This document shows, piece after piece, positions 1 through 64,000 of a stretch of DNA of 64,000 nt (the stretch's first letter is position 1; every line of letters starts with the position of its first letter). The DNA comes from Mesostigma viride (taxonomy: Eukaryota; Streptophyta; Mesostigmatophyceae; Mesostigmatales; Mesostigmataceae), in contig RPFO01000552.1 in the NCBI GenBank assembly GCA_009746045.1, positions 62,001 through 126,000 of the forward strand. Reading direction: 5' to 3'. The notes beneath the pieces were generated by a model that saw nothing but the letters and a program-made list of their open reading frames with translations, searched no databases and was not told the origin of the DNA. The position numbers were made by a program, and so were the translations under genes.

Positions 1-1522
1 TCTTTCAAGGGGGAGGCTGCCCCTGCCTTCTAGTGCCAACTCATCAGAGGTCAAAGTAACCCCTGGCATGCACAAGAAGTTCTGACCCAGAATGGCAGGC
101 CCCTTATAGCCCTCTACCACACAGAACGTGGTGGGCACCCCTAAGATAGGCACACTCACTTCCCCAAGGATCTTCATGGACACCTTTCCTGAGAAATCAG
201 ACACAGCAAGGCAACTGGGATGGGACATCTGTAAGCCTACAGCATCCTCTTCCCTGATGACAGACACCTGTGAGTTGGTATCTACCTCCATTGTAGCTGC
301 CCAGCACGACCCCCACCCCGTGAGCTTGGATACCTTGGGATCATGTTTGCTGCGCATGAGTGCTCGGATGACGTCCGCCATGAGAGGCCCCCGGGCCTTA
401 GGTGGCTGCCCCGTCCCCTCTGGCCTTGTGACAGTTGCTTCAGCAGCCTCCTGCTCGTCATCTTCCAGCAGGGACAGACCATCATCCACCACCAGAGGAT
501 TGTTAGCTGCTGCTGCCTGGCTCTGGCCTGGCTCCTCAACCCAGCTGGGAGGGCCTGGCCCGTCTGCAGGCCAGATTGCATGTGGCCTTCTTTCCTTGAC
601 ATGAGCCCAGGACAACCTGTACACGTGCCTTGGATCCTTTTCCAAAGCCACCAGGCAAGATCTGTTAGCTTCTTCCACACGAGTGACAACCCCATCCTGC
701 CACTTCCCCCGCTTGCCTGGAATAGATGGTTCCTTCCACATCCTGACCTTCAGCCCCACCTGAGGCCTCAGCACATTCCAGTTCTTGTCCTTACGTCTCA
801 GCTGGGCAAATAACCTATCTGCCTTCCTAAGACTGGCCTGCACCACGTTCTCAGGCAGCAAGCTATACTGCAGGGCCAGGGGAGAGACAGCCACACCATC
901 AAAGTAATAGTTAACCCTGTGGTTCAGCTGCTCTTCTATCCCCTTACACCAGGCTGCCCTCTCTAAGGCAGATGCCACAAGTGGCACTGACTCTGCTGCT
1001 AGCACCACTGTCTTCACTTCACGTATGGATCTCTCTACAGCCCCTTGCTGCCCATGACTCTCCCTGGGGACTACCACCAGCTTACAAGGCAGCTGGTCTT
1101 GATGCTTGAGCAAACAGTCAAACTGCAAGTCTGCCTGCACACTCTTGCACACCCCAAAGCCTGGGATCAGGGCCTTCATACCCAACAACAAGTGGTGCTC
1201 CTGCATACCAGGCAGAACGTCTATCAGCCTATATCTGCTGAACCTGTCCACCCCCACCAATATATACAAGCCCCTGATATGCTGGATATCCATCTGGATG
1301 TCGCCACGCTCCCTAGCAGGCTCCCTAGCATGGGACTGAGGTGGGTGAACAGCATTCTCCTGGCAACCACAGTTCTCAGCAGCAGCCTGGCAAGCTTCCC
1401 ACAAAGGCTCCCTACCCAGCTTCCAAGCAAACATTGCTGCCTGCCCAGAATGCCCAAACATATGATGCAATCTATGGCCAGCCTCAGCATAGTTCAGCAC
1501 TCTGTCAGTACTGACCTGGCGA
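1..1522 (-). pseudogene. Copia A pol: integrase and start of retropepsin-like domain
   Basis: This segment is collinear with the element B pol between about 53708 and 52185. Read on the minus strand it encodes the GAG-pre-integrase zinc region, the integrase core, the integrase C-terminal region and then the start of a retropepsin-like domain, whose D-T-N-S motif lies at about 255-292. The protease-like region therefore follows integrase here too. The frame is open to the window edge. A differs from B by one in-frame 3-bp deletion near 447. The polyprotein would make and integrate the element's cDNA. It is scored as a pseudogene because the frame is broken on the 5' side by a TIR element and a 4-bp insertion. 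Confidence 0.85.
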
Positions 1523-2658: not shown

Positions 2659-2661
2659 TCA
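2653..2661 (-). promoter_or_regulatory. In-frame UGA-CUAG between gag and pol (readthrough candidate)
   Basis: The gag stop (2659-2661) reads CAG-TGA-CTA-GCT on the minus strand. The pol frame continues without another stop in the same frame. UGA followed by CUAG is an established high-readthrough context in eukaryotic mRNAs. The same sequence is present in element B at 54045-54047. I infer that Gag-Pol is made by readthrough rather than by frameshifting. Confidence 0.6.
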
Positions 2662-4014
2662 CTGTTGCCCAGACTGGCCCCCTGCCCCAGCAGGCTTGGC
2701 CTTCCTGTCAGGACACTCACGACGCCAGTGACCTTCCTTGCCACACACAAAACATGCTCCACCCTTCTTCCCAGACCCAGCCCCACCCTTGCCAGGCTTC
2801 CCCTGGCCTCCCTGAGACTGCCCACCCTGCTTGCCCTGGTTGCCTTGAGCTTGGCCCTTGCCTTGCCCTTGGCCACCCTTACCCTGCTGACCACCAGCTT
2901 GCTGGCTCCCAACCCCTCCTTGGGAACCTGCACCCTTGCCACCCTGAGCCCCCTGCCTCTGGCGCCTGAAGCGCTTACGCTTGTTGGGCCTTGCCCCATC
3001 ACGGGCTGGGTACCCGGGGACATCACCTTGGCCCTGCACAGCGGAGGTGGCATTGCTGCCATGGGACTGGATAGCCTTGCAGGCAGGATCTGGCTTCCTT
3101 ATGCTGAGGATTACAAGCTCCAGAGCACGCAAGGAGCCATCAGTCTGGTTAAGAAACATGCGGGCACTGTTCCTCCCATCCACACTCAAACCCATACGGT
3201 CCAGGAAATAGTCTGCCAAGGCCCTATCTGTGACCAGGAAGCCATATTTGGCCCCCTTGTCCCTGATACGGTTGAGCCTAGCCCATTCCTCTGCCACAGA
3301 ACCCACTATCTCAAAGGTGTCATACTGATGTTTATAGTAGTTGGTGAGGTTGAGAACCTTGTCAGAGAACTCCTCCCTCAACCCATCCAGGAACTGTGCC
3401 CAGGTTAGCTTATCCTTGACACCAGTCCTAGCCTTTTCTCTGACACGCTCTGACGAGTCCCTGTTGCACGTGGACGAGTGAAACACTTGCACTAGGTTGA
3501 CAGTGGGGTCCACGGAGAGCAAAACCAGCTCCATGTCCTCTAGCCACTTGTCTAGAGCTTCCTGTGCTAGCGGTGGGTTAAGAGGCTTTTGTCCATTCAT
3601 AAGAGTGACTGCACTCATGTGAGGTCTCGACCCTGGCAGCGCTTTCACCGGCTCCACCACAGTGGGTGTCACAGCAACAACGCCACTTGGGCCAGCAAGC
3701 ACAGGGGAGATCACATCCACATGAAGCCTCTTACCATTGCCGTCAGCGGAGGTGTCCCTCTTACGCTTCTCCACGGCTGGTTGCCCATTCGCCACCGTTA
3801 TTGCATCAGTTTGCCCTGCCGCCCGCGCCTTGCGCGCCTCCTCCACCGAGTCTTCGTGCCGTCTCTTGCTGCCTGGTCTCTTTCCCCCATCGCCGTCGCT
3901 GGCTGGGATCGCCTCCCCCACCAGCTGCTCCTTGTCTTGTCGAGGCTCCTGGCTCGCCCCAGCCGGTGCCTCCATCTCGCCCTTGTCGCCGTCTCCCGGT
4001 TTGCCACGAGGCAT
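2659..4014 (-). CDS. Copia A Gag, intact
   Basis: The product of about 451 aa would form the virus-like particle of the retroelement. The chosen start is the ATG of M-P-R-G-K-P-G-D, which is conserved in element B. An N-terminal Lys/Arg/Glu-rich region (residues about 1-130) is followed by a helical capsid-like region (about 170-330) containing Y-Y-K-H-Q-Y-D-T and L-N-R-I-R-D. A Gly/Gln/Lys low-complexity stretch (about 350-420) precedes one CCHC zinc knuckle, C-F-V-C-G-K-E-G-H-W-R-R-E-C. The gene lies 53 bp downstream of ORF0. Unlike its homologue in element B it has no frameshift. Confidence 0.9.
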   Translation of the reverse strand: MPRGKPGDGDKGEMEAPAGASQEPRQDKEQLVGEAIPASDGDGGKRPGSKRRHEDSVEEARKARAAGQTDAITVANGQPAVEKRKRDTSADGNGKRLHVDVISPVLAGPSGVVAVTPTVVEPVKALPGSRPHMSAVTLMNGQKPLNPPLAQEALDKWLEDMELVLLSVDPTVNLVQVFHSSTCNRDSSERVREKARTGVKDKLTWAQFLDGLREEFSDKVLNLTNYYKHQYDTFEIVGSVAEEWARLNRIRDKGAKYGFLVTDRALADYFLDRMGLSVDGRNSARMFLNQTDGSLRALELVILSIRKPDPACKAIQSHGSNATSAVQGQGDVPGYPARDGARPNKRKRFRRQRQGAQGGKGAGSQGGVGSQQAGGQQGKGGQGQGKGQAQGNQGKQGGQSQGGQGKPGKGGAGSGKKGGACFVCGKEGHWRRECPDRKAKPAGAGGQSGQQ

Positions 4015-4067
4015 TATATTCAGTGGGATGGCAAAACAAAACAGGCGATAGACAAGGAATAACAGGC

Positions 4068-5219
4068 TCAAGCGCTGGTGCTGCCTGAAGAAGCCGCTGG
4101 CTGCTCTCCAGCTACTGCCTCCTCTTCACGCTCCTGCGCTGTGCGTGCCACCGGTGTCCCCACGCGTGGAACTGAGCGGACCTCCTCCGCGTTGTAAGGA
4201 CCTAGCACACGGCTCACCGGCCTCCCGGCTGCTGTCTGCTCTACCGGCAGTCTAGGTGCACTGCCACGGCGATACCACTGAAGATTTCTGACCCACCGGC
4301 TACCACCACCTCGCCGATCGTTCCGAGACCCCCGACCAATCTCACCAAAATCGTGTTCCGGCTCAAACGGTATGTGTAACTCTGCTCTACGCCGAGCTGA
4401 GTATCCCTCGTTTGTGCCGTCACCCTCGTCAATCTGCTGTGACGACCGGGCTATGATGCCCGTTGGTCTGTCCACGAACTGATCGTGGAACTCCTCGTCG
4501 GTGACCTCCCGACCGGTGATGACCGTCACCGTTGGCCCAGTCGCCCCTGGCCTGCTCTGCAACCTCGGCGTGTCCAAGGTCGACCAAATGCCCGGCGGAC
4601 GCGTAGTGATCACCCAGTGATCTGCGTGACCACGCGCCTCTTGGATCAGAATGTTGACCAGGTGCTCACACGTTTGAGCCACCACCTCGGCCGAATCCCA
4701 CGGGCTATCGGCCTCGCGCGTCTGCGCGTCCCGTATGATGTGTGACGCGTCGGTCCCCTCCCCCAGCGAGCTTGTCGCCACCCAGTGATTATAAAGCCTG
4801 GTTCCACCTAAACAGATGGCCACCAGTTGGCCCAGCGTCTCACGCGCTAAGTCAAGCGCCTGGATGGTTACGTGCCCGCCCTGGTACGCAACTTCTAAAC
4901 TGTAGATCAACGAAGCGATTTCGTCGCGGATGGCAACGAGGCGCTCCGTGCAGACCCTCCATGTTTCCCCTGGCGACGTCGTCGCCCGAATCCTCATCAC
5001 CACGGGGTCGTTCGCCGACGGCCCTGCTGCGTTACCGAACACAGCGACCCAACCTCCCTCCGCAAGGCCTCTTCTTGCGACGTAGGCCGCTTGCACAAAT
5101 GTGGAAGCGTTGGATTGATGAGTATAGGGGTAGAAGGCGTTTTCGCGCGCCAGCAACTCTGGTGCTGCTTCGCGCCTGGGAGATGAATCAGGTGTCTCAA
5201 CCCGAGCCTCGGCCGACAT
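4068..5219 (-). CDS. ORF0 of copia A, extra protein between LTR and gag
   Basis: This 383-aa protein lies between the LTR and gag and is not part of the standard copia layout. I do not recognise its family. The start is the ATG of M-S-A-E-A-R, which matches the start position of the homologues in B (56636) and D (30884). A variable Ser/Glu-rich N terminus is followed by a conserved block, F-V-Q-A-A-Y-V-A-R and G-W-V-A-V, then a largely helical region. A second block reads S-S-Q-Q-I-D-E-G-D-G-T. The C-terminal tail is charged and carries W-V-R-N-L. No membrane segment, zinc motif or catalytic motif is evident. Conservation in three copies indicates that it was functional. A structural or RNA-binding role is possible but unproven. 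Confidence 0.8.
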   Translation of the reverse strand: MSAEARVETPDSSPRREAAPELLARENAFYPYTHQSNASTFVQAAYVARRGLAEGGWVAVFGNAAGPSANDPVVMRIRATTSPGETWRVCTERLVAIRDEIASLIYSLEVAYQGGHVTIQALDLARETLGQLVAICLGGTRLYNHWVATSSLGEGTDASHIIRDAQTREADSPWDSAEVVAQTCEHLVNILIQEARGHADHWVITTRPPGIWSTLDTPRLQSRPGATGPTVTVITGREVTDEEFHDQFVDRPTGIIARSSQQIDEGDGTNEGYSARRRAELHIPFEPEHDFGEIGRGSRNDRRGGGSRWVRNLQWYRRGSAPRLPVEQTAAGRPVSRVLGPYNAEEVRSVPRVGTPVARTAQEREEEAVAGEQPAASSGSTSA

Positions 5220-5250
5220 GAAACCTTGCGAACAGAAATGCAATAGTACG

Positions 5251-21718: not shown

Positions 21719-22604
21719 TGATCATCCCCATGCCACACAAAGGTGAGTATGCCATGAGGGTGTGGGACCACAAAGAAGCAAGGGTCTATGTCATCATATC
21801 TAGCCCCTAGCTTTTCAAACACAGCCTGAGCTGACATCCTGAAAATGCGAGGAGCTGATTGCAGCCCTTCAACACCTATGTTAGCTTTCAGGTACTGCTG
21901 AGGGATATGTTTTGCCCAGACTCTGGGAGTGGAGACTACATACACCTGACCATGCCACACTTGTTGTGCTATTTCAGGTGAGCCTTTCAAGAAAGCCCTT
22001 TTAATGTCTGTAGCCTTACATACATAATCATCGCCGTCATTGAGATGACCCACAAAGACACACAGCAATATTTTTAGAGAGGTTTTCTGAATGCCTGGCG
22101 TGTACAACTCTGCCTCTGTCAGATCAGTGGTGCCCTTGAACTCTGTCACACAAGGTCTAGCATGGAAAATGACTGACCCATCTGCTGCTGGCTTATGTTT
22201 GCACACAAACTTCAGGCGCAAGTGCTTGCACCCTGCAGGCTTTTTGTCAATAGGTGTGACAGGTGGAGTGTGAGAGGGGCTAAGAGGATCTGGCACTACC
22301 CATTCTTCCCTGGCCTTGTTGAAGGCCACCACCCATTTTAGGAAACCTATTTGTGTGCGACAGTCTTGCTCTATCTGTTCATAAGAAAGAGGGGACATTT
22401 TAGCCACATCATGCTTTCCCAATCCAAAGGAGGTGGGATGGAGTTTTTGGTTATGAACCAAGTCTGCCACACAAGGTTCTTGCCCTGGGGCATACTTGGG
22501 GGTAGCAAATTTTACAGAAGCAATGTTGGTTTGAATAAGTTTGTGAAGAGAGATTTTGAAATGATTCACATCAACACGTACCACCCAGGTCCTGGATGGC
22601 TAGT
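21719..22604 (-). pseudogene. Copia E reverse transcriptase (N-terminal and palm)
   Basis: The minus-strand frame encodes L-R-L-K-F-V-C-K, A-R-P-C-V-T-E-F-K-G, E-L-Y-T-P-G-I-Q, motif A as A-T-D-I-K-R-A-F-L-K-G, and G-V-E-G-L-Q-S-A-P-R-I-F. Motif C is F-V-W-H-G-D-D (21721-21732). The usual copia motif C is Y-V-D-D, so H-G replaces Y-V. The frame stops at the CACTA border and continues at 11531. An in-frame stop lies between it and the protease-like domain. The enzyme would copy element RNA into DNA. Confidence 0.9.
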
Positions 22605-22607
22605 CTA

Positions 22608-22898
22608 TCACTGCATGGAGATAATGACACCAGGGTAAGAGAGAAAAGGGTCACCCAACAAGGCATTACCTTTATAACCTTCCAATACCTGGAAAGGGGT
22701 TGGGATACCAAGTATAGTCAACATGACCTGACCTTGTACCTTGAGTGATGACTGCCCTGAGAAATCAGCCACATGGTGCCAGGGTGAAGGTTCCAAAGGC
22801 ATATGGGGCACAGCCAGTGCACTGATAATGCTGACCTGGGCTTGTGTGTCCACTGCAACCATAAATGGGCTATTGTCATTCTGCCCAACCTTACCCAC
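22608..22898 (-). pseudogene. Copia E retropepsin-like domain, downstream of integrase
   Basis: This block of about 95 aa has the retropepsin pattern: a hydrophobic strand, A-V-D-T-Q-A-Q-V-S-I-I (22824-22860), a flap-like region with V-Q-G-Q-V, I-L-G-I-P-T-P-F, and a closing A-L-L-G-D-P-F-L. The family normally has D-T/S-G at the active site; here G is Q. It sits between integrase (ending near 22933) and RT, whereas copia elements normally have protease before integrase. The same block occurs in B and T. It is probably the Gag-Pol processing protease, but activity with D-T-Q is uncertain. Confidence 0.8.
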
Positions 22899-22932: not shown

Positions 22933-24428
22933 CTATGAGCTGATTGTAAAATGCGAACAGCTTCTGCTAGGCTGCGTTTGGAAGGTGCAGCTAGTGGCTG
23001 AGCTATCTATGTCCACAAGTGTATAGGTGATAGGTTGCTGATCACCTGTTTTGCCAATTTGACCCTCTGCTGCAGGGGGGCAAGCCTGCAGTGACTGCCT
23101 GCAATCATCAACCTTGGTGACCTGGGTGTCACAGTGGTTGTGGCTCTCACACTCACCAGTGGGTGTTCCAAACAACCACTCACTGGGCAATGCTGGGATG
23201 CCAGGCAATTGTACAGGGCTGTCGGCCAACAGCTCTTCCTCCTCTGCCACGTCTGACACAGTTGGAAAATACAATTTCATCCTGTGAGGTGAACACCTGT
23301 GAATCTTACCCGTGTCGTTGTGTTTAACCAGCACTGTCCTGCCAGTGGTGTTAAATGTTAGGATGGTGGCTGGCCCATGCCAGTTACCCACCTTGCCTAG
23401 TCCCGACTCCTTGTAGAATAGGACCTGATCCCCTTCTTTGAAGGTGGGACGTGGATGCTTTGCATCCTTGACAGCTAACCAGCTAGCTGTATGTGCTCTC
23501 TGTGCGTTGTATAGGGCTAGTACCTCAGCTAGTGGATAGATGCCTGCATGCAATCCATCTGGTGTAATGACCACCCCTTGTGGGGTTTTCATGAGTGGCC
23601 GCCTGTTGAGGACCTGGCACAACCTGGTGGACCACAGAGCTCTGTCAGCATATGACCCACTGTCAGCCAGCAGATTACCATCTTCCTTGGCTACAAGGGT
23701 TTTAATGGACCTGATGGCCCTTTCAATGATGCCTTGCCTCTCATGATCTTCTAGCCCTGCCAGATCAATAGCCTCACACCCTGGTTCATTGGCAAGACAC
23801 GTGAACTGTTGATCCAGTAACAATGCCTCCACAGGGTAGTACCTGGCCTGAGCAATCAAGAGAGCCCTGAGCAACTGTGTCTTGTCCATTCCAGGTAATG
23901 GTTCAATGGTTGTGTACCTTGACCATGCATCTTTAAGTGCCAAGTAAGATTGTCCTTTTAAATGAAAGACATCTCCTACCACCCTGCCCTTGCACTGAGG
24001 TGGGGTAGCTACATGCCACTTAGGGGGTTTGGGTGCATTCGGAACTGGCAATGCTGGCAGTGGGATCTGACCACCTGGCAGGCACGTCTGAGTGCTGCCC
24101 CCCCTATTGCTGCTGCCACCACCTCTGCACTCACTTCATGCCCATAAAGGAAGTGCAACTGCAAAGCAAGCTCCTGAATGCTGATATGAGCATCCTCTGA
24201 GGGGGACACTCTACACACCTTGGGAACCATAGAGGTGAAGGTGGGTTTAGAGACATAGTCTTCTGAAACCAGCTGTAACACCTTTCCAGAACTGCTCACT
24301 GCTCTGACAGTGGGGCATGCAGAAGAAAGAGGTGAAGCAGGCACACTCAAGCCAGCATGAGAAAGAGACTCACACTTCTTGCCGTAAGGAGGCCGCTTGC
24401 AGTCCTTCTCGGGGTGCTGGTCGGCGCA
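22933..24428 (-). pseudogene. Copia E zinc knuckle end, GAG-pre-integrase and integrase
   Basis: From 24428 downwards the sequence encodes the second half of a Gag zinc knuckle (A-D-Q-H-P-E-K-D-C), an HHCC region (L-H-F-L-Y-G-H followed by H-C-Q-H-C), and the integrase core. The core acidic residues are in V-V-G-D-V-F-H, L-L-L-D-Q-Q-F and G-I-I-E-R-A-I. A C-terminal region contains P-T-F-K-E-G-D-Q-V-L-F-Y and R-C-S-P-H-R-M-K-L-Y. A one-base frameshift lies near 24040. Gag and Pol seem continuous here, without an intervening stop. Confidence 0.88.
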
Positions 24429-30909: not shown

Positions 30910-31568
30910 ATTTGCACAGCAACTCGTCAGCAGAGCTTGTGAGCTCCTGGTCTTGCTGGCTGGAATGACCCTAGGCTGCTGGCTAGCAACCTTTATCCTC
31001 ACACCAGGCCTACGACCCTCGATAGGCTCGCCACTTGTCGTGACGACCAAGGTTCGTGTGTGAAGACGATAGTTGCCTCGTTGAGCCTCGAGCTATATGC
31101 AACCTCGTTCCATCCTTGTTCCTCGGTCATGAGCAACGCTGTGCAACGCTACTTTGCCAGAGCCTCGTATCGCTGCCCTGCATCCTTGTTGCAGGCAGCA
31201 TACAGGAATCTCTGGCTATCCTGTGTCTAGGACAGCACAGGACCTGCCACAGTCCTGCATGGACTTACATCCTTGCAGACCTGCTGGCTGGCTACTGGCT
31301 TCTACTAGCCACAGGACCGTTGCGTCCTCAGTACACTGTGTCCCAGTCACGTGATGGTCCAGGCTAAGCCTGTGCAGGCACTGCACCTGCCACGTGTCCT
31401 GTCCACTATGCCCTGAGAGTGCACCGCCCTCGCCCGCCGGTCGGCAGTACTTCCGTACCTGATATCTCTCTAGTCCCTTTTCTGTTCTAGGCGGTTGACA
31501 CGGCGTTGGAAAGGTCTCCTCAACCTGCAATGATCCATCTAGCACATTGGTGCCCCAATATGCTAACT
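30910..31568 (-). repeat. 5' LTR of copia D
   Basis: This 659-bp LTR on the minus strand starts AGTTAGCATATTGGGG and ends GTGCAAAT. It is followed by CGTACTATTGC as in element A. It is highly similar to the LTR of relic C (38762-42745), where a hAT element interrupts it, and more distantly similar to the LTRs of A and B. Confidence 0.85.
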
Positions 31569-42154: not shown

Positions 42155-42745
42155 TCTGTGGCTAGCAACCTTTATCCTCACACCAGGCCTACGACCCTCG
42201 ATAGGCTCGCCACTCGCCGTGACGACCAAGGTTCGTGTGTGAAGACGCTCGTTGCCTCGTTGAGCCTCGAGCTATATGCAACCTCGTTCCATCCTTGTTC
42301 CTCGGTCATGAGCAACGCTGTGCAACGCTACTTTGCCAGAGCCTCGCATCGCTGCCCTGCATCCTTGTTGCAGGCAGCATACAGGAATCTCTGGCTATCC
42401 TGTGTCTAGGACAGCACAGGACCTGCCACAGTCCTGCATGGACTTACATCCTTGCAGACCTGCTGGCTGGCTACTGGCTTCTACTAGCCACAGGACCGTT
42501 GCGTCCTCAGTACACTGTGTTCCAGTCACGTGATGGTTCAGGCTAAGCCTGTGCAGGCACTGCCTGCCACGTGTCCTGTCCACTATGCCCTGAGAGTGCA
42601 CCGCCCCCGCCCACCGGTCGGCAGTACTTCGGGACCTGATATCTCTCTAGTCCCTTTTCTGTTCTAGGCGGTTGACACGGCGTTGGAAAGGTCTCCACAA
42701 CCTGCATCCATCTAGCACCTCAGTCGGTCCCCCAATATGCTAACT

Positions 42746-44038
42746 CAAACCCTTTCTTGTTTTGGAGCTTGGACCAGCCTGAGAACCTATCAGCCACTGT
42801 CCCCACATGCCTTCAGACATCTGATCCCTCCCAGAGACCAGACCTGCCTTTTCTTTGGAACCTGAGGTGCCTCCAAATATTAGCTAGGCCTGCTCATTGG
42901 TTCAAAGGTTGCCCTCTGACCCACATGACATCCCAACCCTTTCTTTGGGAACCTGGTGTAGATTAAAGTTAGGTCTTCACTTAGTCAGAGGAGTTTGGAT
43001 AGAGGAGTCCATGAACATACTGTTGTGAGTTCCTGGTCATCCAGTTATCACAGGCGCCCGTTCATGTGGCGCCCGCCACGGAGCCTCCCTTATCTTTTAA
43101 ATCCTTCCAAAGACTGAGAGAGCCCTGACAAATGTTAGCCAACACATGGGGAGCCCATGTCCTCACTGAGGGATAAACTCAGGATTCACACCCCCATGCT
43201 GAGGTCAGCTGGGGAATCGAACCCCACCCCATATCCTCCAGGTTTGGATCAGATCCTGGAACTGAACATGACAAACAACATGACATGACAGTAAAATGAT
43301 TATGTTTTATTATAAAGAAGTATAACCCATAGTGAGGCCCCTGGCAACCACGTCCAACATGGTCACACAACCAGGGATTATTAGCATGCAACAGGTTGGT
43401 TACAGAGAATATATAAAAATGTACAGCAACCTGCTAGAGCCAACACTTGGGCTGCCCTTTCAGGGTCCATTCCAGGAAGACCCAAGGCCCATTACAAAGT
43501 CCTTAAGACTCTTCTGCAACCCCATGACAGGGCCAGGCAAAATTCTCAGCCAGGGGGGTGACTCCAGCCTGACACCTGTCCAGCAGAGTGTGTCTGAACT
43601 CTGAAGGACCTGCTGTCAGCCAACACTTGGCTGCCCAGCCCACTGGGATGCCTCCCACCTAGAGCAAGGCTGTTTGGTCTACTATGGCTCTCTCCCCCTT
43701 GGAAGCCATGAGCCCACGGAGCAGAGGCTAGTAACTGCAGCTCAGCCTTCTCCTCCAGCTTGGTGAGAGCATCTGCAGGGTTGTTCACGCCAGCCACATG
43801 TTCCATGTTAGCTAAGCAAGACATTTCCTTGAGCAACAAATAATCAAGGTCCCTGCTCCTGGCCAGCTGCCTGTGCACAAACTGCACCATGCCCATCCAT
43901 GCTGTCAGTTCTCACCAGTGTGTGCATCTGCAACCGACAGGAGGCCACTTGACATAGCTGGTAAAATAGCTCCCTCAAGTAAAGAGCAGTATGAAGAAGC
44001 CCTTCACAGATTGCCCTGCAGTTGTGCTCCCGAGGGGC
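42746..44038 (-). pseudogene. Copia relic C: RNase H end and 3' untranslated region
   Basis: 42746-43540 resembles the B 3' untranslated region, including a purine-rich tract (AAAACAAGAAAGGG) before the LTR. 43546-44038 encodes M-V-Q-F-V-H-R-Q-L-A-R-S and N-P-A-D-A-L-T-K-L-E-E-K, the RNase H end of the A/B family. Short indels break the frame. The element is cut at 44038. Confidence 0.8.
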
Positions 44039-47268: not shown

Positions 47269-48174
47269 CTAGGTGGAGGGCAATTGCAAAATAGCCCGCC
47301 AGGCCCGAGGGGGGCAGGCGGCCATGGCCCGAAGAAGAACCTCAGGAAGCTCCACCTCCAAACTGCGGTGCAAGCCCACATAATGGGCAACCGTGGAGCT
47401 GCTAAGCCAGCGCCCCCGGCCCTGGATGTCCCCCATGCTGCGACCCGCGAGGAAATCGTGAGTGGCACCTCCATGCCGCAGCCCGTGAATGGTGAAAATC
47501 TGGGCGACCCCCAAGACCTGACTCGCAGCCTGCCAAATGCGCCTGAATTGCGGGTAGGTGAAAGGGAACACGGCCTCCCAAGCGTGCTTACCCGCGATGC
47601 AGTGACGGAGGATGGTTTCAGACATCACATCTTCTACCACCACTGACTGAGTCTTGCCCTTAGAGGTCTTGGTAGACCTCAGCAGTAGGGCGCCCCGTTG
47701 AGCCAGCCCAAGCCGAACGTCAGGCTGGAGGCGCACATGGCCAACACGGAGGTTCAGCGCCTCTGAGATTCGCAGGTAATGGCGGAACACGATGACCACC
47801 AGCAGGCCCGCAAGGCGCTGACCTTGCATGACCATCGTGCTGGCAAGTGCAAACGCCGCCTCCCATGGAATGGGAGGAGGGGCACGGGGGGGCACAAGTG
47901 TTTTCCACCCAGCGAGGACGCCACGGGCCAAGTCCCACCGCTTCACCATACCGGGATAATAAAGTTGCAACCCCATCAAGGCATTGACACACGCTTGGCG
48001 GCTGTACCCCCGAAAATGAGCCCAGGCGACATACGCACAAAATGTCTCCTCAAGGGTGTCAGCTCGTGACGATGACCCGTCCGCCCGCCCACCAGCCTCC
48101 CACCAAGTCAAGAGGGAATCAAGACCACGGCGGTAGGCCAGCAAAGTAGCCGGCTTTACTTTCCCCTCTAGCAA
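47269..48174 (-). CDS. Tyrosine recombinase of the DIRS-like element
   Basis: This 301-aa protein inserts the circular cDNA of DIRS-type elements by site-specific recombination in place of a DDE integrase. An N-terminal SAM-like domain (A-T-L-L-A-Y-R-R-G-L, about residues 7-100) is followed by the catalytic domain. That domain has the first arginine in R-H-Y-L-R-I-S-E-A-L-N-L-R, the box H-G-L-R-H-G-G-A-T-H (H-x-x-R), G-R-W-L-S-S-S-T and the nucleophile in V-A-H-Y-V. All canonical residues (R, H-x-x-R, W, Y) are visible and the frame is intact. Confidence 0.92.
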   Translation of the reverse strand: MLEGKVKPATLLAYRRGLDSLLTWWEAGGRADGSSSRADTLEETFCAYVAWAHFRGYSRQACVNALMGLQLYYPGMVKRWDLARGVLAGWKTLVPPRAPPPIPWEAAFALASTMVMQGQRLAGLLVVIVFRHYLRISEALNLRVGHVRLQPDVRLGLAQRGALLLRSTKTSKGKTQSVVVEDVMSETILRHCIAGKHAWEAVFPFTYPQFRRIWQAASQVLGVAQIFTIHGLRHGGATHDFLAGRSMGDIQGRGRWLSSSTVAHYVGLHRSLEVELPEVLLRAMAACPPRAWRAILQLPST

Positions 48175-48814: not shown

Positions 48815-49462
48815 AGTTAGAAAGAGCTCCCCAGCGTATGTGAGCTCTTGATCTTTCACAGCGCGTCTTAGCCAATGTTGCAAGGCAGCAACCTTAAATC
48901 TGTTCACCAGGCCACGACCACAATGGGCACTTCCACCACCAAGGTGGCACCCACGGTTCGTGCTTTTCGAGATAGCTGATCATCCCCCATGACCAAGCTA
49001 TATCCTTGCGTTGTTCCTCGTTCCCATCGGTGTGACGAGGCACGTGCAGGCGTGCAAGCAAATCCTCAACGTCCACTGGCATCAGTGCAGAGCCATGCAG
49101 GACGAACTGGATTTGCCTAGACTCTGCAACCTAGGAAGTACAGGACCTGTCACAAGCCTGCAAGGCCTAGTATCCTTGCAGACCTGTGCCAGCTCCAGTA
49201 TTCCACCAGTCACAGGCTGCTGCTCCTCTGATCTACGTGGACCACAGTCACGTGATAATCAGGCTAAGCCTGTGCAGGCACGGCCTGCCACGTGTCCTGT
49301 CCACTATGCCAGAGGACTGCACCCTAGTCGGCCACGGATGGCTAGGACTTCGGGACTTGATATCTTTCTCGTCCCTTGTCTGTTTCAGGCGGTCAGCACG
49401 GCGTTGGAAAGGTCTTTCCAAACTGCATCCACTTAGCATATTGGTTGCCCAAAATGCTAACT
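48815..49462 (-). repeat. 3' LTR of copia B
   Basis: This 648-bp LTR begins (minus strand) AGTTAGCATTTTGGG and ends CTTTCTAACT. It is preceded by the purine tract CCAAAAGAAGAAAGGGTTGG (49482-49463). It has an extra ATGC relative to the 5' LTR near 49094. Confidence 0.93.
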
Positions 49463-50471: not shown

Positions 50472-53400
50472 CTATGGCCGCCCGTGTAAGGGGTCCATGA
50501 GCCCACGGAGCAGGGGGTACTGCCTCTCCGCCTTCTCCTCCAGCTTGGTGAGGGCATCTGCAGGGTTGTCCACACCAGGCACATGTTCAATGTGAGCTAG
50601 GTAGGACATCTCCTTGAGCAACAAGTAGTCAAGGTCCCTGCTCCTGGCCAGCTGCCTGTGCACAAATTGCACCATGCCCATGCTATCAGTCCTCACCAGT
50701 GTGTGCAGCTGCAACCTACAGGAAGCCACTTGACATAGCTGGTAGAAGAGCTCCCTCAAGTAAAGAGCAGTATGCAGCCCTTCACAGATTGCCCTGCACT
50801 CAGCAATATCACTGCTGGGTGTAACCCTGTTCTGCAACCGACTGTACCAGGTAACAAGTGAGGTGTGATCTTGCTCCAGGGTAACTAATGCTGCTGCCCT
50901 GCCCCTGACCTCTGTGACCTTCCTATTATCCATAGAACTGTCCACATAGAGAACCATGTCAAGGGGCTTGTACAAATCCACAGGACCCAGTATGAGAGGG
51001 GGAGACATCATGACAGCCTGCACCACACTCTCAGCACCCACCTCAACCAGCTGGGAATCAGTAAGTCGACTCAAAACCAGCAAGTCAGGGGCACATATAC
51101 TTGCAAGCCATGCCAGCATGCCCCTGATGGTAGCACACCTAGCCTGCGTGATGGGCTCCTGCAATGCATCTACAATCTGCTGTGGGTAGTCCTTACCACC
51201 CTCCATCCTGATGAACCACGAGCCCTTGGCTTGGAACAACGTAGCCTGCATGCCACAGAAGACCATAGGCTCATTCTCCACCATGTGCTGTATCTTACCC
51301 AGCTCAAACCGCTTCTGGATCTTAGCCAAGACAGCCTCAACCCAGTCTGGTGGACCTATGAGATGCAGGTCATCACCATGCAGTGAGGCAAAGACAGGAA
51401 GGCCATTGTGGGACCCTTGGAACAAACAGGGATCCACTGGAGACACAGAAAACCCACAAGTATTCTTCAAGAATTTCTCTAGGCTCTTTCTCCAGATAAT
51501 GGGACTGGACCTGAGACCTTCCAACCCTTTCAGAATTCTCAGGTACCTGGCCTTTATCTCTGCTCTCCATACAGCAGGTACAGTCACAAAGAAAGGAGGG
51601 ATATCTCTCCAAGTCTGCCTAGCCTGATCTTGGTCACCCTTGAGAAAAGCCCTCTTGAAATCAATCAGCACAGAGCTATAGGGCACACCCTTAACCAGAA
51701 AAGACAGAAATATACACAGCAGAATCCTCCACGTGTCATGCAGCATCCCTGGAGTATAGAGCTCCTCATCTAACAACTGGCCAGTGCCATGATACTCGGT
51801 TACAACTGGTCTGACATGTGGCACCTGGACACCATCTACCTCCTTGAGCTTGAGGACAAACATCAATCTGAGCAGCTGGTGAACTTCTGGCAGCTCATCC
51901 ACAGGTTCTGCACAGTTGGAAACTATCCACTCATGCCCAGAAGCAACAAAGCCAAGAGTCCATGCCTTAGCCATCTTGGGGCTCTGCATCATCTCGACTA
52001 GCTGGCGCCAGGGAATAGGACTGTGAGCAGCTATCTGGTACCTGTTTACCCCTAACTGCCGTGGATCAAAGGTGGTTGGGATTATCAACAGGTCCTCAGC
52101 TATGGGCTCCTGACCTTGAGGACCCTCAGCTGGCTGACTCCTAACAGCCTTCACCGCCACTGCAAGACCCTGGGAATAGTGATATCTTTCAAGGGGGAGG
52201 CTGCCCCTGCCTTCTAGTGCCAACTCATCAGAGGTCAAAGTAACCCCTGGCATGCACAAGAAGTTCTGACCCAGAATGGCAGGCCCCTGATAGCCCTCTA
52301 CCACACAGAACGTGGTGGGCACCCCTAAGATAGGCACACTCACTTCCCCAAGGATCTTCATGGACACCTTTCCTGAGAAATCAGACACAGCAAGGCAACT
52401 GGGATGGGACATCTGTAAGCCTACAGCATCCTCTTCCCTGATGACAGACACCTGTGAGTTGGTATCTACCTCCATTGTAGCTGCCCAGCACGACCCCCAC
52501 CCCGTGAGCTTGGATACCTTGGGATCATGTTTGCTGCGCATGAGTGCTCGGATGACGTCCGCCATGAGAGGCCCCCGGGCCTTAGGTGGCTGCCCCGTCC
52601 CCTCTGGCCTTGTGACAGTTGCTTCAGCAGCCTCCTCCTGCTCGTCATCTTCCAGCAGGGACAGACCATCATCCACCACCAGAGGATTGTTAGCTGCTGC
52701 TGCCTGGCTCTGGCCTGGCTCCTCAACCCAGCTGGGAGGGCCTGGCCCGTCTGCAGGCCAGATTGCATGTGGCCTTCTTTCCTTGACATGAGCCCAGGAC
52801 AACCTGTACACGTGCCTTGGATCCTTTTCCAAAGCCACCAGGCAAGATCTGTTAGCTTCTTCCACACGAGTGACAACCCCATCCTGCCACTTCCCCCGCT
52901 TGCCTGGAATAGATGGTTCCTTCCACATCCTGACCTTCAGCCCCACCTGAGGCCTCAGCACATTCCAGTTCTTGTCCTTACGTCTCAGCTGGGCAAATAA
53001 CCTATCTGCCTTCCTAAGACTGGCCTGCACCACGTTCTCAGGCAACAAGCTATACTGCAGGGCCAGGGGAGAGACAGCCACACCATCAAAGTAATAGTTA
53101 ACCCTGTGGTTCAGCTGCTCTTCTATCCCCTTACACCAGGCTGCCCTCTCTAAGGCAGATGCCACAAGTGGCACTGACTCTGCTGCTAGCACCACTGTCT
53201 TCACTTCACGTATGGATCTCTCTACAGCCCCTTGCTGCCCATGACTCTCCCTGGGGACTACTACCAGCTTACAAGGCAGCTGGTCCTGATGCTTGAGCAA
53301 ACAGTCAAACTGCAAGTCTGCCTGCACACTCTTGCACACCCCAAAGCCTGGGATCAGGGCCTTCATACCCAACAACAAGTGGTGCTCCTGCATACCAGGC

Positions 53401-54044
53401 AGAACGTCTATCAGCCTGTATCTGCTGAACCTGTCCACCCCCACCAATATATACAAGCCCCTGATATGCTGGATATCCATCTGGATGTCGCCACGCTCCC
53501 TAGCAGGCTCCCTAGCATGGGACTGAGGTGGGTGAACAGCATTCTCCTGGCAACCACAGTTCTCAGCAGCAGCCTGGCAAGCCTCCCACAAAGGCTCCCT
53601 ACCTAGCTTCCAAGCAAACATTGCTGCCTGCCCAGAATGCCCAAACATATGATGCAATCTATGGCCAGCCTCAGCATAGCTCAGCACTCTGTCAGTACTG
53701 ACCTGGCGAGACGTCTGAACCGTGTGTGGGGACACATGATCCACTCCTGAGGTTCCAGGGCTTCCCTGCAGGCCGTCCTGACGCCCCAAGTCAGGCCCTG
53801 CACCCTGGACCGCTCCAGGCCCTTCCAGCAAGGTCCCTTGGCCCTCCAGGCCAGCACCTGCTGGAGACCCACCACCTGCATGAGGCATAGGGAATTCAGC
53901 TGCAGCATTGTTATTGCAATCCAGTGGAAGAACAACATCTTTACACCCTTGGTGCTGCACAAGGGGCACACCCCCGTCCTTATGTACATCCAGCACACCT
54001 TCCCCAAGGGGTGATTGACTATTTACAGGGGATGATGTAGCTAG
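50472..54044 (-). CDS. Copia B Pol: integrase - retropepsin-like - RT - RNase H
   Basis: The frame is open from just after the gag UGA. Domains in order: a linker of about 130 residues; the GAG-pre-integrase zinc region H-R-L-H-H-M-F-G-H ... C-G-C; the integrase core with D in I-Q-M-D-I, D in V-Q-A-D-L-Q-F and E in G-A-V-E-R-S-I; and an integrase C-terminal module. Next come the retropepsin-like domain (M-E-V-D-T-N-S-Q-V-S-V-I at 52441-52475, closing A-I-L-G-Q-N-F-L), RT (I-D-F-K-R-A-F-L-K-G; L-H-G-D-D-L at 51369-51380) and RNase H ending N-P-A-D-A-L-T-K. The protease-like domain follows integrase instead of preceding it. No stop or frameshift is present, so the enzyme set could be active. 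Translation would need readthrough of the UGA. Confidence 0.95.
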   Translation of the reverse strand, partial: LATSSPVNSQSPLGEGVLDVHKDGGVPLVQHQGCKDVVLPLDCNNNAAAEFPMPHAGGGSPAGAGLEGQGTLLEGPGAVQGAGPDLGRQDGLQGSPGTSGVDHVSPHTVQTSRQVSTDRVLSYAEAGHRLHHMFGHSGQAAMFAWKLGREPLWEACQAAAENCGCQENAVHPPQSHAREPARERGDIQMDIQHIRGLYILVGVDRFSRYRLIDVLPGMQEHHLLLGMKALIPGFGVCKSVQADLQFDCLLKHQDQLPCKLVVVPRESHGQQGAVERSIREVKTVVLAAESVPLVASALERAAWCKGIEEQLNHRVNYYFDGVAVSPLALQYSLLPENVVQASLRKADRLFAQLRRKDKNWNVLRPQVGLKVRMWKEPSIPGKRGKWQDGVVTRVEEANRSCLVALEKDPRHVYRLSWAHVKERRPHAIWPADGPGPPSWVEEPGQSQAAAANNPLVVDDGLSLLEDDEQEEAAEATVTRPEGTGQPPKARGPLMADVIRALMRSKHDPKVSKLTGWGSCWAATMEVDTNSQVSVIREEDAVGLQMSHPSCLAVSDFSGKVSMKILGEVSVPILGVPTTFCVVEGYQGPAILGQNFLCMPGVTLTSDELALEGRGSLPLERYHYSQGLAVAVKAVRSQPAEGPQGQEPIAEDLLIIPTTFDPRQLGVNRYQIAAHSPIPWRQLVEMMQSPKMAKAWTLGFVASGHEWIVSNCAEPVDELPEVHQLLRLMFVLKLKEVDGVQVPHVRPVVTEYHGTGQLLDEELYTPGMLHDTWRILLCIFLSFLVKGVPYSSVLIDFKRAFLKGDQDQARQTWRDIPPFFVTVPAVWRAEIKARYLRILKGLEGLRSSPIIWRKSLEKFLKNTCGFSVSPVDPCLFQGSHNGLPVFASLHGDDLHLIGPPDWVEAVLAKIQKRFELGKIQHMVENEPMVFCGMQATLFQAKGSWFIRMEGGKDYPQQIVDALQEPITQARCATIRGMLAWLASICAPDLLVLSRLTDSQLVEVGAESVVQAVMMSPPLILGPVDLYKPLDMVLYVDSSMDNRKVTEVRGRAAALVTLEQDHTSLVTWYSRLQNRVTPSSDIAECRAICEGLHTALYLRELFYQLCQVASCRLQLHTLVRTDSMGMVQFVHRQLARSRDLDYLLLKEMSYLAHIEHVPGVDNPADALTKLEEKAERQYPLLRGLMDPLHGRP

Positions 54045-54047
54045 TCA
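54039..54047 (-). promoter_or_regulatory. In-frame UGA-CUAG between gag and pol of copia B
   Basis: The sequence is CAG-TGA-CTA-GCT, identical to that in element A. The zinc-knuckle frame upstream and the pol frame downstream are the same. Confidence 0.6.
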
Positions 54048-55448: not shown

Positions 55449-56636
55449 TCAAGCACTGGCGTCGCTGGGGGATGCCGTGGGCACCGTCCCAGCTACTGAC
55501 TCAGCACCTGCTTGGTTCGCTGCCTCCAGCTCTCGCTCTTGAGCAGTGGCTGCGATGGGCGTCTCTGGCCGCTCCTCGTCGCTGCCAGCGGCGTCCTCCC
55601 CGTCGGCGTAGGGTCCAAACACTCTGCTAACGGGTCGCCCGTCTGCAGACTTCTCCACTGGGATCCGGGGCTCGCTCCCACTCGAGCGATCCCACTCAAG
55701 GTTCCTCACCCACCGCGTTCCACCACCCCGCTTGTCGTTGCAAGCCCCACGACCACCGTAGTCGTGTTCGGGCTCTTGCGGGACGTGCAGCTCAGCACGA
55801 CGTCGTGCAGCGTACCCTTCTGTGGTACCGTCGCCTTGATCTATCTGCTGAGATGAACGTTCGATGATCCCCTCTGGCTGATCAACGAATTGGTAATGGA
55901 AGTCTTCTGGCGTTACCTCCCGACCCGTGATGACCTCGACCACTGGATCGTGTGCGTCTGGTTCCGCCGCCCGCGGTGTGTCGAGTGTTGACCAAATCCC
56001 AAATGGTCGTGTGGTTATCACCCACCGGTCTGCGTTGCCCCGTGACTCCTGCAAAAGAATGTTCACGAGGTGTTCGCACGTTTGTGAAACCACCTCTGCC
56101 GACGACCAGGGGTTGTCGACTTCGCGCGCCTGCGCTTGCCTGATCACGTCCGGGACTTCAACTCCCGCGCCCAGCACAGACGTTGCCACCTGATGGTTGA
56201 ACAGTCGCGCTGCTCCCAGTCCAATGGCCACGATCTGGCCCAGTGCCTCCCGCGCCAAATCCAGCTGCGACACGGTCACGTGCCCGCCCTGGTGAGCCAC
56301 CTCCAGACCGTAAATGGTCGAGGACAGCTCGTCCCGTATTGACACAAACTTTTCGACGGCCTCTCGCGACAATTCGCCGGGAGCTGTCGAAGCCTCAATC
56401 TGCATCACAATGGGGTCGCTCGCCGCCGGCCCTGCTGCAGTTCCGCAAACTGCTACCCAACCTTTCTTCGCCAGCCCCCTTGCCAGGTACGCCGCCTGGA
56501 CGAAGGTTGATGCGGTGCTCGGATGAGCGTAGGGATGAAAAGGTCGTGATCGCTCCGGGGCTCCTACCCGAAGCTGCGGCTGCGAGCTCTGGCTTTGCGA
56601 AGGCTCAATGGCCTGTTCCCTCGGCACGTTGGACAT
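55449..56636 (-). CDS. ORF0 of copia B
   Basis: This 395-aa protein is homologous to ORF0 of A over its full length. The start M-S-N-V-P-R-E-Q is 26 bp after the LTR. Conserved blocks are A-S-T-F-V-Q-A-A-Y-L-A-R, G-W-V-A-V-C-G, S-S-Q-Q-I-D-Q-G-D-G-T, R-R-A-E-L-H-V and W-V-R-N-L-E-W. The frame is intact even though gag of the same copy is broken. The function is unknown. The gene ends 51 bp before gag. Confidence 0.85.
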   Translation of the reverse strand: MSNVPREQAIEPSQSQSSQPQLRVGAPERSRPFHPYAHPSTASTFVQAAYLARGLAKKGWVAVCGTAAGPAASDPIVMQIEASTAPGELSREAVEKFVSIRDELSSTIYGLEVAHQGGHVTVSQLDLAREALGQIVAIGLGAARLFNHQVATSVLGAGVEVPDVIRQAQAREVDNPWSSAEVVSQTCEHLVNILLQESRGNADRWVITTRPFGIWSTLDTPRAAEPDAHDPVVEVITGREVTPEDFHYQFVDQPEGIIERSSQQIDQGDGTTEGYAARRRAELHVPQEPEHDYGGRGACNDKRGGGTRWVRNLEWDRSSGSEPRIPVEKSADGRPVSRVFGPYADGEDAAGSDEERPETPIAATAQERELEAANQAGAESVAGTVPTASPSDASA

Positions 56637-56661
56637 GAAGAAGTAAGGAGACAATAATACG

Positions 56662-57304
56662 AGTTAGAAAGAGCTCCCAACGTATGTGAGCTCTTGATCT
56701 TTCACAGCGCGTCTTAGCCAATGTTGCAAGGCAGCAACCTTAAATCTGTTCACCAGGCCACGACCACAATGGGCACTTCCACGACCAAGGTGGCACCCAC
56801 GGTTCGTGCTTTCCGAGATAGCTGGTCATCCCCCATGACCAAGCTATATCCTTGCGTTGTTCCTCGTTCCCATCGGTGTGACGAGGCACGTGCAGGCGTG
56901 CAAGCAAATCCTCAACGTCCACTGGCATCAGTGCAGAGCCAGGACGAACTGGATTTGCCTAGACTCTGCAACCTAGGAAGTACAGGACCTGTCACAAGCC
57001 TGCAAGGCCTAGTATCCTTGCAGACCTGTGCCAGCTCCAGTATTCCACCAGTCACAGGCTGCTGCTCCTCTGATCTACGTGGACCACAGTCACGTGATAA
57101 TCAGGCTAAGCCTGTGCAGGCACGGCCTGCCACGTGTCCTGTCCACTATGCCAGAGGACTGCACCCTAGTCGGCCACGGATGGCTAGGACTTCGGGACTT
57201 GATATCTTTCTCGTCCCTTGTCTGTTTCAGGCGGTCAGCACGGCGTTGGAAAGGTCTTTCCAAACTGCGTCCACTTAGCATATTGGTTGCCCAAAATGCT
57301 AACT
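56662..57304 (-). repeat. 5' LTR of copia B
   Basis: This 643-bp LTR starts AGTTAGCATTTTGGG (minus strand) and ends CTTTCTAACT, followed by CGTATTATTG. The outer flank is TTAGC. Confidence 0.93.
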
Positions 57305-59908: not shown

Positions 59909-61660
59909 TCACGGGTGTTGCATCGTCATGCGCTTGCGCAACACTGCGTACTGCGGGGCAGCCTCCCGCGCCTCCTTGGTGAGTGCATCCGCGGGATTGA
60001 GTTCATCCGCGATGTGCTGGAGACGCGTGACGCAGGAGGCCGCCTCAGCGAGTACGAGGTAATCAACGTCCTGTGACCGCGCATAGGGATTGTCAAGGAA
60101 GGCCAAACAACTTTGTGAGTCAGTGTGCACCGTGCTAGTCCAGTGAAGAGTGAACCCACACGAGCCAAATACCCAACCCAGCAAGTACCGCAGCCACATG
60201 CCATGTGAGATAGCTGAAACAATGCCCCGGCATTCAGCCGTGTTGGGGCTAGTGGCAATGCGGCTGTGCAAGCGCGAGTACCAATCTAACAACATGCCAG
60301 GCTGGCCCTCATTGCTGATAAAGAACAGTGCCCCCATGCGGGCCCGCACTTGGCTGACTGTGCGCGTCTCTAGATTAGCATCCGTCACTATCTCGAGGTG
60401 CACCGGCTGTGAGCAATCGAGCCCACGAAGCACAATGCCGGGCGTCATGGCCAGCTGCCGCCGAACATGAATGGACCCTAGTCCTTCCAGCACATCATCG
60501 GGCAGGCGAGCGAGCACTGCCAAATCAGGTGCCACCGTGTCCGCCAACCACCCGAGCTTGCCCTTAACCGAGGGCCCATGGGTTGCCAACAGCGGGGACG
60601 GGAGGTCGGCCAGCAGGTCAACCACATAGTTGCGGCTATCCTGCATGTGCATGACCCATTCGCCAGAACGCGAATCCCGCTGCAACGTAGACTGCACGCC
60701 GCAAAACACCACGGGTTTACCCTCCTCATGATCCACCGCCCTGCCCAGGGGAAACTTAGCCGCCACTGCAGCAAGAAACTGGGTAGCAAATGTGCGAGGT
60801 GCCACCAGCTTGAAGTCATCGCCATGCCACACGAAGAGGGCTGGCTCGCCAGGGACGCCGGTGGGGACCACAAAGAAGTTAGGATCAGCGCGATGGTACG
60901 TGGCCCCTAAGCTCTGCAAGACCTCCTCCGCGGAAATGCGGAAGATGATGGGAGAGCTCTGCAGCCCCTCCACCCCTGTCAACAGCTCGATATACTCGCT
61001 GCCAATGGTGCCATCCTGCCAGACCACCGGGACCTTCACCACGTAGCGGGTGCCTTGCCATGTTTGCTGCGCGACCCCAGCGTCGCTGTGGAGGAATGCC
61101 CGCTGAAAGTCACCGCACCACATCCCGTAGTCCTTGCCCGCGTTCCGCTTGCCCAAGTAGATGACCGTCAGTAGCCGATGCGAAACATGGTTGAGCCCAG
61201 GGGTATAAAGATCCTTGGCATCCAGCGGGGAGGACCCCTTCGTCTCCGTGACCACGGGCCTAACCCGGAACACCACCGAAGAGTTGGTCTCGTCCGGCTT
61301 GTAGGTGAGCACGAACTTCAACCGCAACCGCGTGGCCCCGGCTGGCACACTCTCCAATCCTCGGTAGACCTCGCGCTCTCGCCACTGCTCCTTGGCTCGA
61401 ATGAACGCGTCGCGCCACAAAGCAAACTTGAGAGGATCTTGACAGTCCAGGACAAGTTGCTCCCACGTCACAGGGCTATCCGCCGCCAGTGAGTGTGAGT
61501 GGAGGCCGAAGCTGCGCGGGTGCCAATCCTGAGGCTGAATGATGGACTGGACGAGCGGCGGTGTGGAAAACGCCGCCATCGGTAAGCGCCGCACGACGCC
61601 GGGCTGCCCGACCACCACCCCCAATGGAGCGTGGTACTCGCGAAGCGGGATGCTGCCCAC
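59909..61660 (-). pseudogene. Copia T reverse transcriptase and RNase H
   Basis: RT blocks: L-R-L-K-F-V-L-T-Y-K, R-P-V-V-T-E-T-K-G, D-L-Y-T-P-G-L-N, motif A as C-G-D-F-Q-R-A-F-L-H-S, L-L-T-G-V-E-G-L-Q-S-S-P-I-I-F, and motif C as F-V-W-H-G-D-D-F (60815-60826). RNase H has D-W-Y-S-R-L-H-S, N-T-A-E-C-R-G, H-T-D-S-Q-S-C and L-N-P-A-D-A-L-T-K. It ends at 59909. The frame is open. It is separated from the protease-like domain by one frameshift near 61655. Confidence 0.92.
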
Positions 61661-62245
61661 CCCGCGACTGACAGCAAGTCAGCGGACACTGAGAACCCCG
61701 GGTATGATACGAAAGGTTCGCCCAGCAAGGCCACATCCTCGTAGCCATCCACGACGTGAAACGGCGTGTCAATGCCCAACACCGGCAGCACCACCATCCC
61801 GGTAACTTGATATGCCGAAGTGCCTGCAAAGTCGGTCACCGATTTGTACGGCGACTCTAGCACTGGATACAGGGTGGCTGCCCGACGAGAGATAATAGAC
61901 ACGGATGCTTGCGTGTCCACAGCCACCAGCTGCCACGGTCTACACGTAGGAAACAAGGCTGACTTAACCGGCCTGACCCCCTGTGAGAGAGTTTTGACCT
62001 GAGCCACCCCTGATGCAGCTTTCGCTTTAAGCGCCTGAGCACGCCACAAGGCCGTGACCGTTGAAGCCAGGTCCCTAGGTGGGCGAGGCGCATGGGCAGG
62101 ACCCTGACCCTCCGGCGAGGCCACGCTAGGCGGGCCTCCCACATTATCCGTGGCTAGCACAGGAGGTGAGTCACTACGTGCACTAGGTCCCGTCAAACCC
62201 ACCCCATCCTCATCCCACCCATCCACGGGGTCATATTGGGGCCCA
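61661..62245 (-). pseudogene. Copia T retropepsin-like domain, downstream of integrase
   Basis: It encodes L-V-A-V-D-T-Q-A-S-V-S-I-I (61891-61927), V-L-G-I-D-T-P-F-H-V-V-D-G-Y and V-A-L-L-G-E-P-F-V-S-Y-P-G, closely matching element E. The active-site triad is D-T-Q instead of D-T-G. The frame is joined to integrase by a shift at a run of eight C (minus strand, about 62247-62254) and to RT by a shift near 61655. Position and conservation point to the element's protease. Confidence 0.8.
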
Positions 62246-64000
62246 GGGGAGGGGGGGGTGTAGCTGTGTCTGCCCCTGGGAGCGACCCGTGGGGTACCAC
62301 CTCAGATGCTACGACAGGCGCATTATCCTTCACTACCCACCCCAGTGCCCTGTTGGCTGCCAGCTCACTCTCCATGCTATCCCCTTGCTTATAGCCTGCC
62401 ACCGATGCCCATGGTACCCTATACACCCGATCATTCCACTCTATGTCTATGACCCGCAGCGGCCAGTCTAACTTTGTGATGGCCCCAGGCCCCTGCATGG
62501 TGCCCCGTTTGCCGCTGGGCGAGCTCTCCTTGTGGAACATGACCAACTGCCCGACCTCAAAAGCGCTAGACAAATCAGGCAGCGTGGCATCCTTGAGCCG
62601 CAGCTTGGCGGCGGTATCCTGTAGATGCTGTTGGTATGCCTCTACTACCTCGGGTGAGTAGGTGCCCGCTGACAGCCCCCGAGGCGTGACTAGCCCAAAG
62701 CCCTTGACATCAAGCACGTGCCTATGGTTGCACACATGCATGAGCTCCTTGCACCACGCCGTCTTGACCGCGTAGGATTTGCCATGTGGGTTATCCTGTC
62801 GCTTGGCTGCCACAGTCTTGACATAGCTTACAGTGCGATCTATCATGCCCATATTGCCGTGATCCTCACGCCCCACGATGACCACGGCCTCCATCCCCGG
62901 CAAACCTTGCACACAGCGGAACTGCTGGTCTAGCATGAGCTCCACTACGGGATGAAAGAAAGCCAGGCTGATCTTGATAGCCCTGTGCAGGTCAGCCTCA
63001 TACATGTGGGGCAGCGGCTCAATGTAGGTGACCTTGCTGAACCTATCCTTGACTATGAAATAGGTGTCCCCCCCTTCCATGTGCATGACATCCCCCACAA
63101 GGTACCCTCGCTCCAAGGGTGGAGTCTTGGCATGCCGCCTACGCGACTTCTTCCTGATCTTGATGCAGGCAGGACACTGAGCACGCACATTCTTCAGCTC
63201 GTTGTATAAAGGTGCCCCCAACATGTGTGCCCCCTCTACCTCGGCTTGGGCCTCATGCCCGTATGCACGGTGCATCTGGTATGCTAACAGTTTCAGGGTG
63301 ACAGCCTGAGGTGCAGTGGCATTGTCAGGATTCTCAACAGGTGGGGTGACTACTGGGGTAGTGACATTGGCTAACTGGGCAGCTTCAGAGGCTGCACGAA
63401 AGGCCGCCCGTGTGAGCACCTTGCCAATGTGAAGATCCACACTAGGGTGGTGTGTACCGAGAACATCTGCCCGCCCAGCATTCTCTTGCACTGTCACAAC
63501 ATTCCTCATAGGCCCAACCGCCCCAGTATCTAGCTGGGGTGCTGCAGTAGTGCTTGGTCGCTCGGCGTTGTACACACCCGACCTAGAAGACACCACATTG
63601 CTTAGGTCACGCATTGTAGACCCGTGCTCAGGAAGCACGTGATCCTGGCGCGACAGAGCCAGAGCAGCATCAACGGATTGCGTGAGCACATCACGGAATG
63701 AGACAGAGGATGCAGTCACGTTGCTTTTAGGAACGACGTCAGGCTCTACGACGGCCCGGTTCAGCGTGATGCATTGAGCAAAAGAAGGGGTATCGAGCGT
63801 GCTCTCACCTGACTTTCGTGCTGCCCGTCGCTCTGCCCACTCCTCGCGTGTGCCGTGGACGACGATGCGCTTGGCCTTGCACGCCTCCACGCTGTGACCA
63901 CGCAGAACGTCGTGGCACTTGGGGCAAAGGTTGTCCTCGAGCTCCAGGTCCGGACGAACTCGGCAGTCATCCCGGACATGGCGACGTCCGAAGCAGCGCT
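62246..64000 (-). CDS. Copia T: Gag zinc knuckles, GAG-pre-integrase and integrase
   Basis: From the window edge the frame reads two knuckle-like motifs (the second C-P-K-C-H-D-V-L-R-G-H-S-V-E-A-C) directly into pol, with no stop. Integrase: H-R-A-Y-G-H-E ... C-P-A-C-I-K, V-G-D-V-M-H-M-E-G, M-L-D-Q-Q-F-R-C and G-M-I-D-R-T-V. The last has Asp where the third catalytic Glu is expected. The C-terminal module is V-M-F-H-K-E-S-S-P-S-G-K-R-G. A lone L-D-T-G-A at about 63510-63532 lacks retropepsin context. Confidence 0.88.

Follow-up and report, generated by a model that had tools for sequence, protein, structure and literature searches.

Do copia-like retrotransposons of the streptophyte Mesostigma viride carry integrase ahead of protease, and if so, what kind of element are they? 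The question is raised by a 64,000-nucleotide stretch of contig RPFO01000552.1 (GenBank assembly GCA_009746045.1, positions 62,001 to 126,000 of the forward strand), referred to here as the window. The order of the Pol domains is routinely used to separate copia from gypsy long terminal repeat (LTR) retrotransposons. The initial annotation described copia elements in the window, here called A, B, E and T, in which a retropepsin-like protease block (PR) lies between integrase (IN) and reverse transcriptase (RT), giving the order Gag-IN-PR-RT-RH, where RH is RNase H. This order is correct, and it is real and common to divergent families. It matches neither the PR-IN-RT-RH of Ty1/copia nor the PR-RT-RH-IN of Ty3/gypsy. 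The four elements probably belong to a distinct LTR retrotransposon lineage with an IN-PR-RT-RH Pol, in which a copia RT-RH is combined with PR and IN of gypsy/retroviral type through a single recombination. The Pol domains are located as follows.

50475..53996, minus strand: Pol of B, a single open frame of 1174 aa, IN-PR-RT-RH
52773..53672 (tblastn 52737-53696), minus strand: IN of B, with zinc-binding part, D-D-E core and C-terminal domain
52218..52505, minus strand: retropepsin-fold domain of B, VDTN...AILGQNFL (PR profile)
51117..52076, minus strand: RT of B, copia type (tblastn; RVT_2 below the Pfam cut-off)
50475..51116, minus strand: RH of B (tblastn; hhalign to copia references over RT-RH)
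550..1509, minus strand: IN of A, 99.7% to B (tblastn)
34..321, minus strand: retropepsin-fold domain of A (PR profile)
23290..24194, minus strand: IN of E, in two frames (tblastn)
22611..22886, minus strand: retropepsin-fold domain of E, VDTQ...LLG (PR profile)
21721..22485 (tblastn 21721-22437), minus strand: RT of E, truncated (RVT_2)
62400..63317 (tblastn 62400-63284), minus strand: IN of T, sharing its frame with an upstream CX2CX6HX4C finger
61669..61953, minus strand: retropepsin-fold domain of T, VDTQ...LLG (PR profile)
60560..61519, minus strand: RT of T (similarity to B; no Pfam match)
59915..60556, minus strand: RH of T (tblastn)

On the minus strand, tblastn searches with the B domains show PR flanked by IN and RT in B, E and T. 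A profile was built from six PR blocks (B, E, T and the protein records P0002, P0003 and P0004) and searched against the 1534 six-frame, stop-to-stop segments of at least 25 aa in the window. It recovers four copies, A, B, E and T, with E-values of 2.1e-43 to 1.7e-40; B, E and T are themselves part of the profile and so are bound to match, and A is nearly a copy of B. The block ranges first proposed were roughly correct, but the T block is narrower than the 61661-62245 assigned to it. In A, the block does follow IN as described, but the PR core is whole and not merely its start. Only IN followed by PR falls inside the window for this element, which is cut by the window end and is 99% identical to B there.

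Protein searches returned relatives outside the window, and the label jgi/Mesvir1 that some of them carry is read as Mesostigma viride. P0002 (1214 aa, from an ENA contig) has 44% identity to B across 98% of B residues 101-960. The other three are jgi/Mesvir1 gene models: P0003 (816 aa, PR-RT-RH), P0004 (1157 aa, IN-PR-RT-RH, with the model starting at IN) and P0010 (182 aa, a piece of IN). The host range of the lineage is probably green algae. P0004 and P0010 also match a stretch at 35722-36173 (minus strand), which is another integrase fragment belonging to this lineage. The 3' part of an element of a related family occupies 42156-44020 (minus strand), with an LTR at 42156-42745 that starts AGTTAGCATATTGG. 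A further LTR copy of that family at 30976-31568 (minus strand) is 95.8% alike and also starts AGTTAGCATATTGG.

IN is followed by PR and then by RT in all five families that can be read through the three domains: B (with A), E, T, P0002 and P0004. Because these carriers are divergent in sequence, the integrase-first order is judged to be old. A local rearrangement, an insertion nested in another element or a misassembly could in principle have joined unrelated pieces in a window crowded with transposons and broken copies. Such a join is extremely improbable: the same order recurs in several divergent families, including two of the outside protein records, and B is complete between matching LTRs.

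The B block reads VDTNSQVSVI...AILGQNFL and is, by structure prediction, a retropepsin-fold domain. The best 50 of 436 Foldseek matches in the Protein Data Bank (PDB) are all retropepsins. As a single sequence, the B block retrieves three HIV-protease constructs from the PDB with phmmer (E 0.33 to 1.4). Across the six blocks, Asp-Thr is invariant, the third residue of the triad is Asn or Gln, and Asp-Thr/Ser-Gly does not occur. The loop at the end of PR is ILG or LLG in all six, and the copia LLS/ILS motif is absent from them. With no glycine in any of the six, the triad is unusual, and protease activity with Asp-Thr-Asn/Gln is unproven and only inferred. The five reference PRs that could be excised (three copia, two gypsy) all have DSG or DTG, and this difference would suit a catalytically dead retropepsin fold that is kept for dimerisation or particle assembly, with Pol processed otherwise or not at all. 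A dead fold is unlikely, though it deserves serious weight. Against it, Asp and Thr are retained without exception and the blocks preserve an ILG-type loop. PR is also the domain in which B and P0004 are most alike; in the comparison of B with P0002, however, its identity (51%) is behind that of RT (54%) and RH (60%).

If these were ordinary copia elements, the true protease would lie in the linker between Gag and IN and the block would be something else. A scan of three such linkers (B, T and P0002) gave no match to any protease family at E up to 10; the E linker is decayed, and the P0004 model starts at IN. A D[ST][GNQ] string is absent from the B and P0002 linkers. The T linker holds a lone DTGA string, the one feature in favour of an ordinary copia arrangement, but a VLG follows merely ~20 residues downstream, compared with ~60 residues from Asp to the ILG loop in the PR blocks of the lineage. 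We give this explanation hardly any credence.

The domains differ in their affinities. The RT-RH profile of the lineage scores 220 to copia and 14.5 to gypsy (41 columns), and copia scores 32.3 to gypsy. In the RT-RH tree, the lineage forms one side of a branch with 100/100 support, and its stem is very long. The integrase fits gypsy/retroviral integrases better than copia integrases. The C-terminal part of the lineage IN can be aligned with gypsy IN and with the PFV and Ty3 IN structures, but its GPY/F motif is not strict. The protease likewise fits gypsy/retroviral-type domains better than copia domains, with the ILG-type loop of non-copia elements. Gag was also considered for class affinity, but only the zinc knuckle aligned, and it did so to both classes.

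The name copia therefore holds for RT-RH, but not for PR and IN, which fit gypsy/retroviral types better, nor for a PR triad without glycine. Because only RT-RH is copia-like, the lineage appears to be a mosaic and not a copia element with a reordered Pol, and the interpretation in the initial annotation is supported in part. Alternatively, a deep LTR lineage could have split near the copia/gypsy divergence and kept PR and IN of ancestral type, without any copia-gypsy recombination. The very long stem of the RT-RH tree fits such a split, as do the weak gypsy likeness of PR and IN and the strong copia likeness of RT. However, the RT is placed on the copia side because the RT-RH score to copia far exceeds the score of copia to gypsy, and a deep split is unlikely.

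Weak matches temper confidence in the single-recombination mosaic. None of the best 50 of 436 Foldseek PDB matches reaches an E-value of 0.001. The Pfam RVT_2 matches of B (E=1.6e-4, 21.8 bits) and E (E=2.3e-7, 31.1 bits) are both below the cut-off of 31.6, and the T reverse transcriptase has no Pfam match.

The features that bear on Gag-Pol expression and on the ends of the elements are listed below.

54045..54047, minus strand: TGA stop of B followed by CTAG, between the Gag zinc knuckle and Pol, in the same frame
2659..4071, minus strand: Gag frame of A, 470 aa, with a CCHC zinc knuckle
2659..2661, minus strand: the same TGA-CTAG stop in A, at the end of the 470-aa Gag frame; the Pol frame continues
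56662..57304, minus strand: 5' LTR of B, starting AGTTAG and ending CTAACT
48815..49462, minus strand: 3' LTR of B

In A and B, Gag ends in CAG (or CAA) CAG TGA CTA G, and Pol follows in the same frame. UGA with CUAG directly after it is an established context for efficient readthrough, and its position suggests that Gag-Pol of A and B is made by stop-codon readthrough. In T, the upstream finger and IN share one frame with no stop between them, so the UGA-CUAG arrangement is not universal in the lineage. The Gag region of B is broken over at least two frames, and that of A is open throughout. Apart from 2 indel records excluded from the count, A and B differ in their shared pol stretch by 6 synonymous changes and 2 that alter an amino acid. 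An extra frame of ~400 aa with no Pfam match above the cut-off lies upstream of Gag on the minus strand of both elements (4068-5243 in A, 55449-56654 in B).

The T Pol is spread over three overlapping frames. A scan found no slippery heptamer at the PR/RT frame change. Near the IN/PR frame change lie eight consecutive C and a GGGTTTG, at 62200, whose phase relative to the codons does not suit -1 slippage. For these reasons, indels or sequencing errors seem likelier than programmed shifts. The E copy has decayed: it is truncated and broken by several frame changes and stops.

The LTRs of B are 98.5% identical and are flanked externally by a 5-bp duplication, GCTAA. Their inverted ends are AGTTAG...CTAACT (AG...CT) and not TG...CA. 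A tyrosine recombinase (Phage_integrase, E=2.5e-7), perhaps DIRS- or Crypton-like, lies just past the 3' LTR at 47269-48174 on the minus strand. Elsewhere in the window are pieces of a CACTA-type transposon (Transposase_21 and DUF4218; 13571-15395, minus strand) and of a hAT-type transposon (DUF659 and Dimer_Tnp_hAT; 39784-41528, plus strand). The CACTA and hAT domain pairs are common in plants and, together with the Mesostigma relatives, suggest a green-algal host.

In the most likely course of events, one modular recombination would have set a gypsy/retroviral-type IN and PR ahead of a copia-type RT-RH, and the lineage would have diversified afterwards. In A and B, Gag would mostly be made alone, and occasional UGA-CUAG readthrough would yield Gag-IN-PR-RT-RH. 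This polyprotein would be packed into particles, where PR would dimerise and cut. IN, on the N-terminal side of PR, would be released, and PR might stay attached to RT. RT would then copy the RNA, and IN would insert the DNA with a 5-bp duplication. The fuller proposal, an undescribed superfamily-level LTR lineage with an integrase-first mosaic Pol, a working Asp-Thr-Gln/Asn protease and UGA-CUAG readthrough, is possible but on balance doubtful.

The main text of the Mesostigma genome paper (PMC6947507) contains neither copia nor gypsy in a text find. A partial literature search (titles and the starts of abstracts) found no description of an integrase-first order, and absence from print is not established by it. 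In the sections available of a green-plant survey (PMC6317226), elements that looked chimeric or departed from the expected order were discarded as likely mispredictions, so lineages like this one may be systematically missed. Through the integrase-first mosaic, an exchange of modules across the copia and gypsy classes becomes testable. If active, the conserved Asp-Thr-Gln/Asn triad would broaden the definition of the retropepsin active site.

The lineage resembles Ty1/copia (Pseudoviridae) in its RT-RH type (RVT_2), IN ahead of RT, LTRs and CCHC Gag. According to the available sections of a 2009 survey (PMC2774666), every Ty1/copia genome then known has IN downstream of PR, Ty1/copia PR ends with an LLS/ILS motif (as also in excerpts of PMC2642776), and Ty1/copia IN lacks the GPY/F module; diatom elements have the expected orders in the part available of PMC2806351. 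Unlike Ty1/copia, the lineage has IN before PR, an ILG-type loop instead of LLS, an IN that aligns better to the gypsy type, C-terminal part included, and, in B, LTRs without TG...CA. With Ty3/gypsy (Metaviridae) and retroviruses it shares an ILG-type protease directly before RT and an IN match that extends to the C-terminal part, but its IN occupies the N-terminus of Pol and does not follow RH, and its RT-RH is of copia type. The Gmr1-like Ty3/gypsy elements are a known lineage with a displaced integrase, but there a gypsy element adopts the copia order, with IN downstream of PR (PMC2774666, same sections). Petunia vein clearing virus, a caulimovirid, differs in having IN before gag rather than between Gag and PR (PMC2774666, likewise). 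Osser and other green-plant copia lineages are similar in having a copia-type RT in the green lineage.
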